Below, piece after piece: positions 4,255 to 16,088 of a stretch of 21,901 nt of DNA. A program made the translations under genes and the position numbers. Each line of letters starts with the position of its first letter. Within the stretch, counting starts at the first letter, position 1. The notes below the pieces were generated by a model. It saw only the letters and a list, made by a program, of their open reading frames with translations, made no database searches and had not been told where the DNA came from. Origin of the DNA: a virus; the IMG/VR virus record IMGVR_UViG_3300025913_000316, positions 1 to 21,901 of that record. One strand, 5' to 3'.

Positions 4255-7200
4255 CTATTTCCTCCCGAGCAACTTGTTCCATGAATCGGCTTTCTGATGA
4301 AGGACTAGATTCGACAGGCTAAATCTAAACCCATCGTTTTCTCTGAACTCGAAGAATGTCCGGGATGCAGCGAAATTTAGGCTGCATTCGCAGTCATTCA
4401 TCGCCGGGTTGCCGGGGCTGAATCCTCCGGGTACGGTCCATGCGTTGTAGTTGGTAGTATCTTCTCCCGGCCCTAACAGGACATTCGGTAGCAGGCGCTC
4501 ATTCACTAGACCTCTTGTTTCGATTTGCGCAACCTGATATCCCCACCGCTGCCGGAACGAACCCGCCATAGGCGTCTGAGGCCTCTTGGTCAACTCAACC
4601 AATCCCGCCGTAGTGTAGAGCGAATCAATCGTCAGCCCGTCATCGGTATCCGCCGTATCGTCAAGGAAGTAGATACGGGAATTAGCCCTGCCGCTACAGA
4701 TGTACACGTTCTGGCTGAGAGGTCCCAGACCTGTCAGCGTCGGAGGCTGCGATTCCACGATTGCCATGTATGGCGAAGGAATCTGCCACAGGCTCCACTT
4801 CCGCCGCATGTCTACCGAGTTCAATGTTCCGAACATGGTAGTGTGCATCTGCGGTTCGCCCTTGAGCGCACCCCCGGAATCAAGTCCCTGATAGTTGCAC
4901 ATCAGGATCACGTTCGGGCTGGATGGCGTCAGGTTTACCGGAGCATTGGGCAGATAGAAGTTAGGCGTAGGGATGGGAAGGCCAATGAACAGCCTGCGAT
5001 GCACTACGTCATTCTTGACCCAGATAGTCTTTGCCGAGGGCCAGTAGATCGAGTCCCATATCTGGTAAATCTCCTGCGTAATCTTTCCCGGCTGACCGCC
5101 CTCAAAGATGTAGAGGCCGTTGCGGTTCGCCATCGCAATCCACTGTTCGCCAAAGTCGTAGGCCAGTATCCCGATAGCTCCCGACTTCTGCGCTACTTCG
5201 GGCTCATCCCATTGCGCGGGTTCAAGATTGGCCGATGCCTGGAGCGAATACATCGACGTGCCTTCAATTGTTCCCTTGAGGCCATAGAGGGTGTCGTACA
5301 TGACTACGGCGCCATTCAATGGCTGCTGGTTTTCTGAGGAGAACTCCACTCTTCCCGTTACCGCGTCAAACTGCTCCGGAAGTCCCGCGTAGGACATGAA
5401 GAACGATGTCGTCAGTACCGGGATTGCCGTGGGGAAGATTTCAATGCGGTCTATCTCCACGTCGGCATTGGGCTGCAATTCCAGCCCCCTGACTCCCAAC
5501 AAAAGGGACGCTGGAATCTGCGGAAGCCCGGTAGTCAGTACGCCCTCATAAATCCCGTAGTCCGTGGTCATTGCGGAGAAGGGCAGCGAGAAGAATGATG
5601 CCTGAATCCCCGCCGCGCTGAGGTAGATTTGGAGCGCACCCGCCGTGATGCCGGAAGGAATACGCGCCGTGACCCTGACGCTGTACCCGGTGTTCGGCTG
5701 GAGAATGGGAACCTTGTAGGCGTCCTGATAGGCATTCTGCGTAATAAGCCCGATAGACGCGAGAGACAACCCGCCATTCTTGATGTAGTAGGCATTGCCG
5801 AATCGCGGCGAGACGATCAGTGACCCGTAGATGTCCGGAGTAGACCATCCAAGAGGTACCAATTGACCGTCCTGCTGCGAAGGCAGGTAGCCTCCGTCAA
5901 AGGAGAGGTTATTGAAGTTCTGTATCTTGTTCCGGCACAGTCCTACGCCCAGACGTTCCGCGTACTTCACGATAAAGCCGGGATCGCCAATCTCAATCTG
6001 GTTGAACAGGTTGTAGCCATACACATCGACAGCCAGCGCATTCAGGAGAACCGAATCCGAGAATGTCAGCGTGGCCGAGGTAGAAACGTTGTCTGGGATG
6101 ATGAACGACGTAGCCGTATAGGTCACGTCATTGACCACATAATCCACTTCGTCCGGGATGGTAAAGAAGTTCGCTCCCGGAGTCCCGTTCTGACCCGGCT
6201 CCGTGATGATAATGCCGCGCTTCACGACGTTAGGCGGTCCTACGGGAATCTGCGATACGAACAGAGACGTGGTGTTTTCAGGACACGTAAAGATGACCGG
6301 AGGAGCAGGAGCCGTGTAGTAGCCGTTGCGGGTAATGAAGAAAACCGACCCTTGCCGGGTTCCCGGACCGATCAACTGCGCACTGGCAGGAATGAAGGTC
6401 AGCGTACCGCCTGTCGCGTTGCCGTAAATCGGGCTGGTCGTGGTGGTCAGCAACGGCAGTCCGGGATCGAACTGGAAGATCGTCCCTGCGGTGGTTGCGA
6501 GTCCATCTTCCGGGACGCTTGCCGCCGTGGTTACAGGAACCGAAAGAGTAAACGTGCCCGTCGTTCCCCCCGACGCTCCGGTAATGGTTGCGTTGGCGAG
6601 ATTCAGGGCACCATTGGCATTCGTTGTCCCGGTGATGGTGACAAGCTGCCCGATAGTGGGAGGGGTTCCCGAGTTCACCGAATAGTTGTAGGTAGCTACC
6701 GACGCCGTGACGGAGGTGTTGGTAATGACCATAGCCGCCGAGTTGAGCGCAGCCGAGATGGGCCACGTGGCATCCCATGAAGCTACCGATGACCCTGAAA
6801 TAGTAACGTTGTTCCCTACCTGAAGCCCGGGAACCGGAACCGCCATGGTCAGCGTAGCTGCAGACTGCTGGTACTGTCCCGCTCCCGCCACGATCTTCTG
6901 ATAGGCCGAGGTCTGCGCCTGCACCGTGAAGTAGTAACGGAAGTGATCCACTCCCGGAGGCTGCGCATTGCCTACCGACGTGACGAGATAGTTGCCGTTC
7001 GCAAACACGGTTCCAGAGATGTAGACATAAACCGATTTCCCGGAATTGAACATGTCTACCAGCGTCTTGTCTTCGGCTTCCGGGTGAGTCGAACCCCCGT
7101 AGAAGGAGGGCGAGTAGTAGACCGTAATCACGTTGCCGGGAGCCGTAGAGCCGGGACCAGTCGATTGCAGTAGGACGCTCAGAGTGCCCGGGTTGGTGAT

Positions 7201-9978: not shown

Positions 9979-10065
9979 ACTCTTCCTTTCTTCAGTGAGG
10001 AGACTCCAATAACGGAATCTGCGGAGACAGGTCAGAAGCTACCAGAATCCCCTCCCTGAAGCCCG

Positions 10066-12058: not shown

Positions 12059-13396
12059 CTATGCGTCAGCAGGTGTCGGTAAACCCTGAATATAGAACTG
12101 TGCTTTCATCTCAGGGCATAGTAAGTTGAAGGCGGTCTCGTAGGCAAACATGGTGCTGTCATAGTACGTATTCCCACCGCCGTCGTTTACGGGAACCGCT
12201 GCTACGGTGTTGCCTGGTGTCCACTCATGCAGGCGAGTCTCGTAGAGTTCGCCGAAGGTGAAGGACGAGGGAACGATGCGGTCAAAGCGTCCAGGTTCGG
12301 ACGTTGAGGACCAGCAGACTTCCTCGCCAGCCCACTTGTCCTGCATGTACCGCTTGGCAACGTCGGGAACGGTATCCCCGCCATTGTCGAGATCGGTTCT
12401 GCCCGGGACATAGTAGTTGCCAGCCAGAGCCACGCCCTGCACGGGGTTGCCGTACCAGAACGCCTTCTCCTGCTTGTCGTAGTCATCGCCCATCGCACGC
12501 ATACGAATGGACTGAACCCGCAGGGCTGTGGAATTGACAATGGTTCCCGATCCGCCAAAGTTGATGGTAGGAGTCGAGAAGCGGCCCGGATACTGCGAGA
12601 TGTCGATACCAGCCTTGGTGCCGACGTTTCCGTTCTGAATCCAGTAATCCTTGCCATAGACCGAGGAGCCAGCCGCGCCTGTCGCGCCCTGAACCACCAG
12701 CAAGTCACCCGCAGCCGTCGCACCGCCCGTCGAAGGCAGAGCATCAGCCGAATAGAGCCGCTGCGCAACCGGATCGACGTAGGAGATGGTAAAGGTGCCG
12801 CGTGTCGTTCCGCCCACCGAAGGGAGAACCGATACTACCTGCTGATCTACGAATGATGCAGCGTTGTTGGTCACGACATAGGAGAATGCCGGACCAGCGG
12901 AGCCGGAACCCGAGGATGGCGTCACGACGGAATCGATGGTGCCCGAGCCGTCACGGTTCAGGAGGGCTTCGATGCCGTTGTCATGCGCCAGAAGGGATTT
13001 GTTCATCTCTTCCTTGGAGAACTTAACCAGACCGCGTTCCTTGCCGTCTGTCGCGTAGTTCGCCATGTTGGAGATTTCGCAGATGGAGACAAACCGAACC
13101 GGGCTGGCCGCCATCGAAACGTACTTGCCAGCCGAGCCGCGTCCGTAGGCGGGAGCGGTGGTTGCTGTGTCATTGCCGAACTGTTGAATCGGAGCGCCGC
13201 CCTGAACGCGAGCAGATGCCCAGAAAGGAGCGCGTTGAACGCCCCCACGGTTGGTTTCAAAGGAGCACTGCTTTGTAGTGGCTCCCTTTTTGATACGGGT
13301 TTGAAGCCGATCAAATTTCGCCTGAAGGTCCGGAATATCCGATACAAACGCTTCAAGTTCAATTGCTTCGGCTGCTAATTCTGTGGATAGAGCCAT
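12059..13396 (-). CDS. Major capsid protein
   Basis: A 445-aa protein placed directly after the scaffold in the head block, apart from the accessory cassette. The N-terminal region is helical and charged (LEAFVSDIPDLQAKFDRLQT), followed by a K-K-G-A-T-T-K-Q loop and a Gly/Ala/Ser-rich core. Residues about 150-260 form a Ser/Gly/Thr/Val-rich insert resembling a surface domain (TPSSGSGSAGPAFSYVV), and the C-terminal part has aromatic-rich beta segments ending KAQFYIQGLPTP. An HK97-type fold is expected from the role but is not proven by the sequence. ATG 13396 follows an AGGACGG site; a GTG frame extending to 13453 is rejected for lack of one. A co-chaperonin gene follows. Confidence 0.85.
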   Translation of the reverse strand: MALSTELAAEAIELEAFVSDIPDLQAKFDRLQTRIKKGATTKQCSFETNRGGVQRAPFWASARVQGGAPIQQFGNDTATTAPAYGRGSAGKYVSMAASPVRFVSICEISNMANYATDGKERGLVKFSKEEMNKSLLAHDNGIEALLNRDGSGTIDSVVTPSSGSGSAGPAFSYVVTNNAASFVDQQVVSVLPSVGGTTRGTFTISYVDPVAQRLYSADALPSTGGATAAGDLLVVQGATGAAGSSVYGKDYWIQNGNVGTKAGIDISQYPGRFSTPTINFGGSGTIVNSTALRVQSIRMRAMGDDYDKQEKAFWYGNPVQGVALAGNYYVPGRTDLDNGGDTVPDVAKRYMQDKWAGEEVCWSSTSEPGRFDRIVPSSFTFGELYETRLHEWTPGNTVAAVPVNDGGGNTYYDSTMFAYETAFNLLCPEMKAQFYIQGLPTPADA

Positions 13397-13572
13397 GGTG
13401 TCCGTCCTGAGAAATGAGCTACGCGAGCTTGCGCCCCGTGCGTGTGTCTCCACATCTCAATCAGTCAGGATTTAGCCAGTTTACGGTCATTAGTCCGTCC
13501 GACCTGGAATCGGGTAGTACCTGACGGGTGTTGTCTATTGGAATACTACTTTGTTCTCCAAATGTAAAGCCT
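13397..13572 (-). promoter_or_regulatory. 176-base leader before the capsid gene, with a weak promoter candidate
   Basis: This is the longest gene-free stretch upstream of a core head gene here. On the minus strand TTTACA (13568-13563) and TATTCC (13545-13540) stand 17 bases apart; the -35 matches 5 of 6 and the -10 only 3 of 6, so promoter activity is possible but weak. The leader also has CCGTC and GACGG arms around the middle, too short to be convincing. No open frame of useful length lies in it. A long leader on the most strongly expressed phage gene is often regulatory; that is inference. Confidence 0.3.
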
Positions 13573-14094
13573 TTAAATGCCTAATGAACCGCTCCCCATC
13601 TCTAGTGATGCCTCTTTTGATGCTTTCTTGTTCTCTTTTAAGGTCGGGTCTAGGCCGTTCTCCGCGCACCATTCGTATCGCGCATTCATAAACGCTTTCG
13701 ACTTGAGCGTGTTGAACCCCTTCCGATTTCCAAACTCCCTGTCTCTTTCCATGTTCGACGGAAGGAATCTATCGCCTATCCCATACTCGTATTCGTAGAT
13801 GAGTGTGCTCGGATAAACAGTCATCGCCTTAATGAGGTCTTTGGCTTCTTGAGTCCTCAAACCAAACCATTCGCCATTGATGCGTTTACCGGCATAAGTT
13901 TTGTGCATTTCGGATTCGAGAATAGTTTCGTTTGAGGTTCCCCAGATGGCGAACACTTCAATTTTGAATGGCAACAGAATCCCAATGTCGGATACCCGAA
14001 TTTTTGCGTTCTTGGATTTTCCTATTTTGTACCAACCGTATTTCTGGGAACCGATTAGGTAGACATAGCCAAGGTAAGATTGCTCTTGAGGCAT
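13573..14094 (-). CDS. T5orf172/GIY-YIG-like nuclease-family protein
   Basis: A 173-aa protein. Residues 9-14 (GYVYLI) and 22-25 (YKIG) match the two halves of the GIY-YIG core, R33 sits where the catalytic arginine lies, and ILESEMHKTYAGKRINGEWF (residues 58-77) supplies the E/H and G-E-W-F elements of the T5orf172/MUG113 branch. Family members include homing-type endonucleases and proteins of unknown role. The C-terminal 75 residues are charged and unassigned. The ATG at 14103 abuts GGAGG with no spacer, so the ATG at 14094, with a 9-base spacer, is the better start. Hand counts of two 60-base blocks give 40-45% G+C against 50-63% in the capsid gene, consistent with late acquisition. Confidence 0.82.
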   Translation of the reverse strand: MPQEQSYLGYVYLIGSQKYGWYKIGKSKNAKIRVSDIGILLPFKIEVFAIWGTSNETILESEMHKTYAGKRINGEWFGLRTQEAKDLIKAMTVYPSTLIYEYEYGIGDRFLPSNMERDREFGNRKGFNTLKSKAFMNARYEWCAENGLDPTLKENKKASKEASLEMGSGSLGI

Positions 14095-14123
14095 CTCGGA
14101 CATCCTCCGATAGTCGAATGACT

Positions 14124-14139
14124 GGGTGTTTGCGCACCC
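14124..14139 (-). promoter_or_regulatory. Hairpin at the 5' end of the leftward nuclease transcript
   Basis: GGGTG and CACCC form a 5-bp stem around a 6-base loop. Given the -10 element at 14153-14148, transcription would start near 14141, so this hairpin would be the first structure in the message. It could stabilise the RNA or be a protein-binding site. The predicted position relative to the promoter is inference. Confidence 0.4.
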
Positions 14140-14147
14140 GATGCCTC

Positions 14148-14156
14148 ATTATATCA
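14148..14156 (-). promoter_or_regulatory. Consensus extended -10 promoter, leftward
   Basis: On the minus strand the bases read TGATATAAT, that is TGn directly followed by a perfect TATAAT hexamer. No good -35 is seen 16-18 bases upstream (GTCATG at 17), as is usual for extended -10 promoters of housekeeping sigma factors. It would drive the nuclease gene and possibly the capsid gene beyond it. It lies 28 bases from an inverted repeat that may be an operator. Confidence 0.6.
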
Positions 14157-14183
14157 AATAAATAGCTTTACATGACGCCTAAG

Positions 14184-14202
14184 TGGTGTCACACTGACAC
14201 CA
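14184..14202. promoter_or_regulatory. Perfect inverted repeat, candidate operator of the divergent cassette
   Basis: TGGTGTCA (14184-14191) and TGACACCA (14195-14202) are exact inverted arms of 8 bases with a 3-base centre. The right arm ends on the A of the ATG of the ribbon-helix-helix gene, and no Shine-Dalgarno sequence is visible before that ATG. Proteins of this fold usually bind such sites as dimers and repress their own gene, so autoregulation of the rightward pair is likely; effects on the leftward promoter are possible. Binding is inferred. Confidence 0.55.
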
Positions 14203-14474
14203 TGAAGCGCATTACTGTACGTCTTACCGACCAAGTACATGGCGCGTTAATGATTGAACTGCCCGAGTGGCGAAAGTTGCGTGGACCACGGTTCAGCCTT
14301 AATAACCTTTGCGAAGAGAAGTTGTCAGCGCCAGTCCAGCCTACACAATGGCAGACTTTCACAACAGGTACAAACAATGTGGTTTACACAGTCAGCACCC
14401 CACCGATTTATCAACCTCAACCTAAGGAGACAAAATGTCAGGCCAAGTTGAAGAAACAGCAATCGCGTCCGTAA
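14202..14474 (+). CDS. Ribbon-helix-helix (Arc/MetJ/CopG-type) regulator
   Basis: A 90-aa protein on the strand opposite to the late operon. Residues 1-8 (MKRITVRL) form the N-terminal strand with alternating polar and hydrophobic residues that enters the DNA major groove; T10-L20 (TDQVHGALMIE) fits helix 1, and RFSLNNLCEEKL (30-41) fits helix 2 with the S-L-N-N-L-C-E-E-K-L pattern typical of the fold. Residues 45-90 are a Gln/Pro/Thr-rich, basic tail of unknown role. An in-frame ATG at 14172 would add ten residues before the fold and is less likely. An inverted repeat ends on its start codon. The gene overlaps the next by 40 bases, so the two are co-expressed. Confidence 0.7.
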   Translation: MKRITVRLTDQVHGALMIELPEWRKLRGPRFSLNNLCEEKLSAPVQPTQWQTFTTGTNNVVYTVSTPPIYQPQPKETKCQAKLKKQQSRP

Positions 14475-14731
14475 CCAAAAAAGCTCTTGTAACCTTGCGC
14501 GGAGATGTGTGCATTCTTGTGAATGACAGTCCCGTGGTGACCCACGCCTTTATTATCGAGTATCAGGAGGACCCAACGCACAACGGCCCTGCGAAGGTCA
14601 AAGTTCCGAATGAGGTAACTGTTATTGGTTTCCCCGACGGACGGAAGCTATCGCGGCGCATCTTCCTGCACTTGAATTACGACATGATCACATGCGCAAT
14701 GGAATTACCGCTGGATTGGAAACCGATTTAA
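14435..14731 (+). CDS. Unknown 98-aa accessory protein paired with the regulator
   Basis: A 98-aa protein not recognised by family. It begins MSGQVEETAIASVTKKALV, then has alternating strand-like stretches (VTLRGDVCILVNDSPVVTHA, FIIEYQED, AKVKVPNEVTVIGF) and ends ITCAMELPLDWKPI. The look is a compact, mostly beta protein without signal peptide or membrane segment. A strong TAAGGAGACAAA site precedes ATG 14435, the same ribosome-site style as the phage late genes. It overlaps the regulator gene by 40 bases and ends 28 bases before the convergent scaffold gene's end. A small regulator-linked accessory protein could act in counter-defence or exclusion, but nothing in the sequence proves this. 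Confidence 0.68.
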   Translation: MSGQVEETAIASVTKKALVTLRGDVCILVNDSPVVTHAFIIEYQEDPTHNGPAKVKVPNEVTVIGFPDGRKLSRRIFLHLNYDMITCAMELPLDWKPI

Positions 14732-14759: not shown

Positions 14760-16088
14760 TCATCGATTCGGCCTGAAAATCCGGATACTTCCGTCCTTCA
14801 TTCGGAACTGCTTGCTTCCGTCAGCCTTGGTCATCAGCCAGTCGGTAGGCGTGTTCTGAAAGTCGATTTCCCCGTTTGGCGGTCTTACCGATACCACCTT
14901 GGGTCCGTTGGCAGGCGCAAAGGTTCCATTGGGTGTGCGCGGTGCGGGAGGAGATGACATCGGACGTTGCTGCATGAACTTGCGATAGCCTCGTTCATCT
15001 ATGAGTGCTTCAAGAACTCCCCTTGCGTGCTTATCGAAGTTCACATTAGCCAGATTAACCACTACCGCTCCATCGGGGCTGGTCTGCTTCTGATAGCGGG
15101 ATAGCTGGGTAACATATTGCCTATCGGCGCTCAGTTTGTTGACTACGCCTGTCAGAAATGCCCTCTTTAATCCATCCATTGCTGGCTGGTCTAGTTTGAG
15201 CCGATTAGCGTAGGGCTTGAATAGTTCCTGAAAACGCTGCTCGCCAAAGGCGGTTGTTTTAGGATGAATGTTCTTATCCCAATACATCTGCCGCTTTTCA
15301 TTCTCAATCTGCTGACGTTCCTGCTGTAACTGGTCCTGCTGCGGTGGACGCCCGTTTACCCCCGGGACCGTCTTCCCTTTTACCGCCTGATCCTGCGCAT
15401 TCAGCCACGCAGCCATACCGTTCGCGTGCTTGATGACGTTTTGCAGCTTGTCGTTGATCCAGTTCGTCTTCTGGTCGGGGGTCAGCCACGCAGGCGGTTC
15501 CTGGTTGAGCACATCCACGATGCCGTTGAACTCGGAGACGAGCGGCGATACTCGTAGTGCGGATACCAGATGCGGAAGGATAGTTTCTGAATACGCTTCC
15601 GGCTTAGATTGCTGGAGACGATTCAGATATGATGGAGCCAGTTTAGCTAGTCCGTCATCGAACTCTGGCCCAAATAAATCCCACACCTTTTCGTTGCCCG
15701 AAGCCAGAAGCTCATCCGACTGCTCGTAATCCTTGATCTGGTCCTGAATCGCGGATATGGCGTCTACGCCCTTGGCTTCCCCGTATTCGAGGCCATCAAG
15801 GATAGCTTTGACTTCCCGTACCTTGCTGACACCCTCGGGGTAGAGTTCCCGAAGAAGCCTATCCCGGCCTTCAAGGTCTTTGCCGTACCGCGCAAACTTC
15901 TGAATCTCAGGGTCGGTTGCGGTGTCCCGCGTGGTCTTCAGCCAGTCAGAGAAGCGCTTCGAGAACTTGTTATCGCTCTCTCCGGGTTGCTGTTCGGGTT
16001 GTTCCTGCGTTTGCTGTTCAGGTGCTTCCTGTACGACTTCCTCTGCCCCGATTTCGGGCTGGTCGATTACCGCATCAAATCCGTCCAT
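14760..16088 (-). CDS. Probable scaffolding protein
   Basis: A 442-aa protein located between portal and capsid genes, where podophage scaffolds lie. Residues 10-40 are Glu/Gln/Pro-rich and probably disordered (EQQTQEQPEQQPGESDN); residues 55-330 are mainly charged helices (KVREVKAILDGLEYGEA, LQQERQQIENEKRQMYW). The extreme C terminus is basic (KQFRMKDGSIRIFRPNR), as in P22-type scaffolds, whose positively charged end binds coat protein. No protease motif is seen. The ATG at 16088 follows GGAGACAGGGAGACAA, and the upstream stop overlaps that site. The call rests on position, composition and charge pattern. Confidence 0.7.
   Translation of the reverse strand: MDGFDAVIDQPEIGAEEVVQEAPEQQTQEQPEQQPGESDNKFSKRFSDWLKTTRDTATDPEIQKFARYGKDLEGRDRLLRELYPEGVSKVREVKAILDGLEYGEAKGVDAISAIQDQIKDYEQSDELLASGNEKVWDLFGPEFDDGLAKLAPSYLNRLQQSKPEAYSETILPHLVSALRVSPLVSEFNGIVDVLNQEPPAWLTPDQKTNWINDKLQNVIKHANGMAAWLNAQDQAVKGKTVPGVNGRPPQQDQLQQERQQIENEKRQMYWDKNIHPKTTAFGEQRFQELFKPYANRLKLDQPAMDGLKRAFLTGVVNKLSADRQYVTQLSRYQKQTSPDGAVVVNLANVNFDKHARGVLEALIDERGYRKFMQQRPMSSPPAPRTPNGTFAPANGPKVVSVRPPNGEIDFQNTPTDWLMTKADGSKQFRMKDGSIRIFRPNR

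Follow-up and report, generated by a model that had tools for sequence, protein, structure and literature searches.

Control by a hairpin coupled to a promoter has been described for the T4-group genes I-TevI, I-TevII, I-TevIII, segB and mobE (PMC2988022). In T4 I-TevI and segB and in Aeh1 mobE, the start region is sequestered in long upstream transcripts, and an internal promoter yields a transcript that lacks the 5' arm (PMC2988022). A second related group is the T5orf172 proteins, homing endonucleases that are often found near capsid, terminase or reductase genes and that have sometimes been recruited against satellites, as in ICP1 (PMC10448857). Here we analyze a 21,901-nt stretch of DNA from a virus record (the window), in which the terminase, portal, scaffold-like and capsid-like head genes all lie on the minus strand and a three-gene cassette sits between the scaffold-like and capsid-like genes (Table 1). 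We read this cassette as a likely insertion of a homing-type nuclease, with RNA/promoter control that resembles T4's and occurs here in a new setting. Specifically, we propose with a probability of about 0.7 that it is an accessory insertion cored on a free-standing GIY-YIG homing endonuclease-like gene with hairpin/promoter control.

Table 1. Features of the scaffold-capsid junction, in descending order of window position.
Feature	Position	Strand	Basis or remark
Scaffold-like gene	14760-16088	-	Label from first-pass annotation and gene order
Third gene, 98 aa, no known family	14435-14731	+	Codon usage; no homologue
Small gene	14202-14474 (start at 14172 less likely)	+	Codon usage; ribbon-helix-helix-like by eye only
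Operator-like perfect palindrome TGGTGTCAcacTGACACCA, 19 bp, arms of 8	14184-14202	.	Overlaps small-gene start
Weak -10 CACACT of small gene, 17-nt spacer from TTTACA	14190-14195	+	Inside palindrome
Candidate -35 TTTACA of small gene	14167-14172	+	Sequence
Extended -10 promoter TGATATAAT	14148-14156	-	Predicted transcript start ~14142, inside 5' arm
Start-codon-burying multi-branch fold, read-through RNA	14087-14148; closing arms 14140-14148 and 14087-14095	-	
Shine-Dalgarno GGAGG of nuclease	14104-14108	-	9 nt before ATG 14094; sequence
Nuclease gene, GIY-YIG (MUG113/T5orf172)	13573-14103, probable true start 14094	-	Pfam, motif residues
-35-like GCTTTACAT	13562-13570	-	Just upstream of capsid leader
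Capsid-gene leader, conserved structured RNA	13397-13545	-	
Leader strands	A 13520-13525; B 13464-13470; C 13405-13410 (over capsid ribosome-binding site)	-	
Capsid-like gene	12059-13396	-	Label from first-pass annotation and gene order

The three genes that the first-pass annotation had reported are present, and their codon usage resembles that of the core genes, with negative scores in all other frames. The small and third genes overlap by 40 nt. As had been claimed, the nuclease gene is lower in G+C than the capsid gene (0.454 versus 0.575); the small gene (0.480) and the third gene (0.495) compare with 0.542 for the whole window. The control region is indeed divergent; the nuclease is co-oriented with the head operon, and only the small and third genes are opposed to it. 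A group I intron or intein was rejected as an explanation for the block, which lies between complete genes and has no Rfam intron match; neither a tRNA search nor Rfam matched anything in the window.

Comparison with relatives at the scaffold-capsid junction indicates that the cassette is an accessory insertion, as the annotation had suggested. Capsid-based searches identified 21 further records (capsid identity 54-72%), one of which is an Acidobacteriaceae MAG contig, and none of the 21 has any of the three genes in its scaffold-capsid gap, which measures 132-439 nt. The only carriers are the window and one record identical to it over 8191 nt, a twin that possibly shares its sample with the window or stems from a linked one and is not independent confirmation of the cassette. 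Whole-record searches of the relatives, many of which are fragments, found neither a MUG113-type nuclease nor a third-gene homologue elsewhere. Among these relatives there is no cassette-free allele with near-identical flanks, and therefore no homing site can be named. Two of them (L006 and L037) have a different small insertion at this junction, whose ORF of ~59 aa looks like a membrane peptide. Neither the scaffold-like nor the capsid-like protein passes a Pfam cut-off or has a significant PHROG match; the capsid-like protein also has no match in phage records and is an undescribed lineage, seen here in metagenomes and the Acidobacteriaceae MAG contig only.

The nuclease-like gene of the first-pass annotation proves to be a GIY-YIG nuclease by Pfam, with scores above the curated cut-offs for MUG113 (1.1e-11, 45.5 bits, cut-off 22.3) and T5orf172 (1.4e-7, 32.4 bits, cut-off 20). 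The motif residues Y15, KIG26-28, R36, E63, H67 and GEWF77-80 are invariant with two phage proteins. It shares its GIY-YIG subfamily and its place beside a capsid or other essential gene with the T5orf172 homing genes of ICP1, T5-like and Vibrio phages (PMC10448857), but their CapR/DUF723/DUF4397 zinc-finger DNA-binding part was not found in it, and it belongs to a three-gene block. No known DNA-binding domain matched its C-terminal half (residues 95-176), and a Pfam search found no RepA_N, CapR, DUF723 or DUF4397 domain.

Other free-standing nucleases occupy neighboring head-gene junctions in relatives, and for this reason we favor a free-standing homing endonuclease-like gene. Endonuclease VII genes directly follow the capsid gene in L009, L010/L011, L026, L035 and L043/L044, and HNH/AP2 genes lie before or after p283 in L005, L009, L027 and L028, two of them opposing the operon. 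(HNH-type genes run against the head operon at L009 10864-11430 (-), which has a good promoter match of 11 points, and at L027 7534-8064 (-).) The window nuclease itself shows the presence/absence pattern between relatives, at an intergenic site beside a conserved gene, that is used to recognize homing genes. Judged from sequence, the cassette is best read as a homing-type insertion, which is the economical reading, and we infer that the nuclease moves by homing. The insertion would sit after the scaffold stop and ahead of the promoter and leader that belong to the capsid gene itself, with the third gene most likely carried along as passenger cargo. An unlikely alternative is that the nuclease has been domesticated to cut the DNA of a competing satellite or phage, like ICP1 Odn, with the small gene as a check. 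T5orf172 nucleases have been turned against satellites in ICP1 (PMC10448857), and ordinary homing genes do not need two extra cassette genes; however, the domains listed above were not found, no satellite target is known, and the nucleases at neighboring junctions are of the ordinary homing type.

The annotation's claim that the cassette is separately controlled is supported by an RNA fold and an internal promoter match. The nuclease more likely starts at ATG 14094 than at 14103, because the former lies at the 9-nt distance from GGAGG. On the nuclease strand the palindrome is followed by the extended -10 TGATATAAT, whose TATAAT is the only one in the window by direct search of both strands, and then by TGAGGCATC, the pairing partner of GATGCCTCA at the start codon. 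The -35 is poor (2/6), and a consensus promoter/terminator scan of the cassette gave no excess over shuffles. In read-through RNA, a cloverleaf-like four-way fold (-32.5 kcal/mol; z -4.9, reached by 0/200 shuffles) encloses the ribosome-binding site and ATG 14094. RNA made from the promoter, starting ~6-7 nt past the -10, is without the 5' arm, and its fold is hardly stronger than those of shuffles (z -1.1). The energy needed to open the start is 12.4 kcal/mol in the read-through RNA versus ~2.6 in the promoter-made RNA. Sequence and folding together give the two marks of I-TevI-type control, a start codon buried in read-through RNA and a promoter RNA that lacks the 5' arm. Long messages reading through from the upstream head genes would bury the start codon and keep nuclease translation off; the -10 abutting the 5' arm would give a short message without the arm and turn translation on. 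Both this off/on effect and the transcript start near 14142 are predictions from the sequence.

The five endonuclease VII genes that directly follow capsid genes show the same layout, with their start codons in or at strong hairpins whose sequences differ. Their predicted -35/-10 elements, all with 17-nt spacing, are TTGACA/TAAGAT (L009), TAGAAA/TAATAT with TG (L010), TTGCAA/TACAAT (L026), TTGACG/TAGGAT with TG (L035) and TTGTCA/TATGAT (L043). Counting the window nuclease, each of the six capsid-flanking nucleases has, within or next to its 5' arm, a promoter match that scores 9-11 points and has a 17-nt spacer; the background rate is 3.4% at >=9 points and 0.5% at >=10. Start opening energies are 10.0-17.3 kcal/mol in 6/6, above every one of 139 core genes (mean 3.5, maximum 8.8 kcal/mol; Mann-Whitney p 1.8e-5, not corrected for relatedness). 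In the promoter-made RNAs, which have discriminators of 6-8 nt, these energies fall to 0.1-4.4 kcal/mol. Since the endonuclease VII genes are mutually homologous, the six cannot be counted as independent events. Within these homologues the first base of codon 2 shows a compensatory series: U-A (ACC, Thr), U-G wobble (GCC, Ala) and G-C (CCC, Pro).

There are also differences from T4. Where T4 uses late promoters, those here are sigma70-like and have a spacer of 17 nt. Two of the relatives (L009 and L026), in contrast to I-TevI, segB and mobE, would yield essentially leaderless endonuclease VII messages, and in the window the control region is shared with a divergent small gene that has a palindrome of its own. 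These results suggest that the timing device of T4-group homing genes is also used in uncultured soil phages, possibly of Acidobacteria, and by two unrelated nuclease families. If true, the device would be a solution, general or evolved more than once, for selfish genes that sit in essential operons, and its simple sequence signature may serve to find such nuclease genes. The HNH/AP2 genes were rejected as further start-hairpin cases, as their opening energies (1.5-6.4) are within the core range. The strong hairpin upstream of the three co-oriented HNH/AP2 genes belongs instead to a conserved leader, kept in the window without the gene. A long, strong hairpin with a TGTCTC loop lies between p272 and p283 (window ~9980-10060 (-); also L005, L027 and L028) and is conserved with and without the inserted gene; its loop is complementary to the GGAGACA ribosome-binding motif that is common in the window phage.

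The first-pass annotation had also described the cassette as self-regulated and the small gene as a regulator. The operator-like palindrome at the small gene's own start is one of only two in the window with arms of at least 7. The putative regulator itself is recognized by no profile, with nothing in Pfam up to an E of 10 and nothing from RHH_1, RHH_3 or Arc, and the small gene has no homologues in viral contigs. It has no visible ribosome-binding site, and its promoter elements suggest a leaderless, self-repressed message. Autoregulation through this candidate operator is plausible, and the divergent small protein would probably act as a repressor of its own promoter. The third gene has its own strong ribosome-binding site. 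It matched nothing in Pfam, PHROGs, PADLOC, NCBIfam, PDB, phages, viral contigs or genomes, and its one match among plasmids was insignificant.

In outline, then, the cassette is accessory and separately controlled, as the annotation held; the defense analogy does not carry over. JBD30-type anti-CRISPR loci likewise place accessory genes among head genes together with a small putative regulator, and a defense or counter-defense role had been proposed by analogy with them. We find no positive support for this role. The nuclease belongs to a class known for homing endonucleases that neighbor capsid genes (PMC10448857), its PADLOC matches (best 3e-7, PDC-S57) span only the shared GIY-YIG domain, and nothing points to an anti-CRISPR because the third gene matches nothing searched. 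Unlike the JBD30-type locus, the cassette is divergent and has a nuclease as its main gene, and profile and homologue searches found no Aca-like HTH gene and no known acr homologue. An anti-defense locus, with the small gene as an Aca-like repressor, the third gene as an inhibitor of host defense and the nuclease as a hitchhiker, draws on published analogy only: the head-gene location, the perfect operator-like palindrome and a small protein without known family. Given a putative repressor not recognized as HTH or RHH and a third gene without homologue in any collection searched, we regard it as quite improbable. Least probable of all is a toxin-antitoxin-like pair (small gene as antitoxin/repressor, third gene as toxin) that stabilizes the insertion with the nuclease as mobility gene, since the two genes, short, overlapping and lying after a palindromic operator, do resemble many type II pairs in size and order but match no toxin or antitoxin family, and their AlphaFold2 single-sequence models (pLDDT 38 and 44) are too poor to use.

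Downstream of the proposed homing-type insertion, there are signs of an undescribed regulatory RNA ahead of the capsid gene. The capsid genes of relatives are preceded by promoter-like elements, which often overlap the scaffold stop. Their leader combines a three-way junction with a second hairpin that carries a conserved GAGACA bulge. A structured leader with three mutually complementary strands is seen in the window, L003-L012 and L026-L037. Strand B (typically GAATCC) is complementary both to strand A (GATTCG-type) and to strand C (the ribosome-binding site, GGGATTC), and the three lie at near-constant distances of about -120, -70 and -10. In a fixed-geometry test, 9/14 leaders were reached by at most 3/60 shuffles; the window leader is weaker (6/60), and those of L006, L026, L028 and L035 were not significant by this strict test. 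In the window all three strands have changed together (GTCAGG, CCTGAC, TCAGGA). Rfam has no match to the element. With two mutually exclusive helices, one of them over the capsid ribosome-binding site, the leader is a candidate translational RNA switch; if this holds, a major capsid gene would be under a cis-acting switch of a new class. That the whole junction is under two-level RNA control, by the leader switch and by nuclease start-codon hairpins coupled to internal promoters, is a tentative and rather doubtful extension. Lastly, the capsid leader of L005 contains at 5798-5866 a tRNA-like element, also present as the same sequence in L004, which is not called by ARAGORN and scores 41.6 bits against the Rfam tRNA family, over the cut-off.
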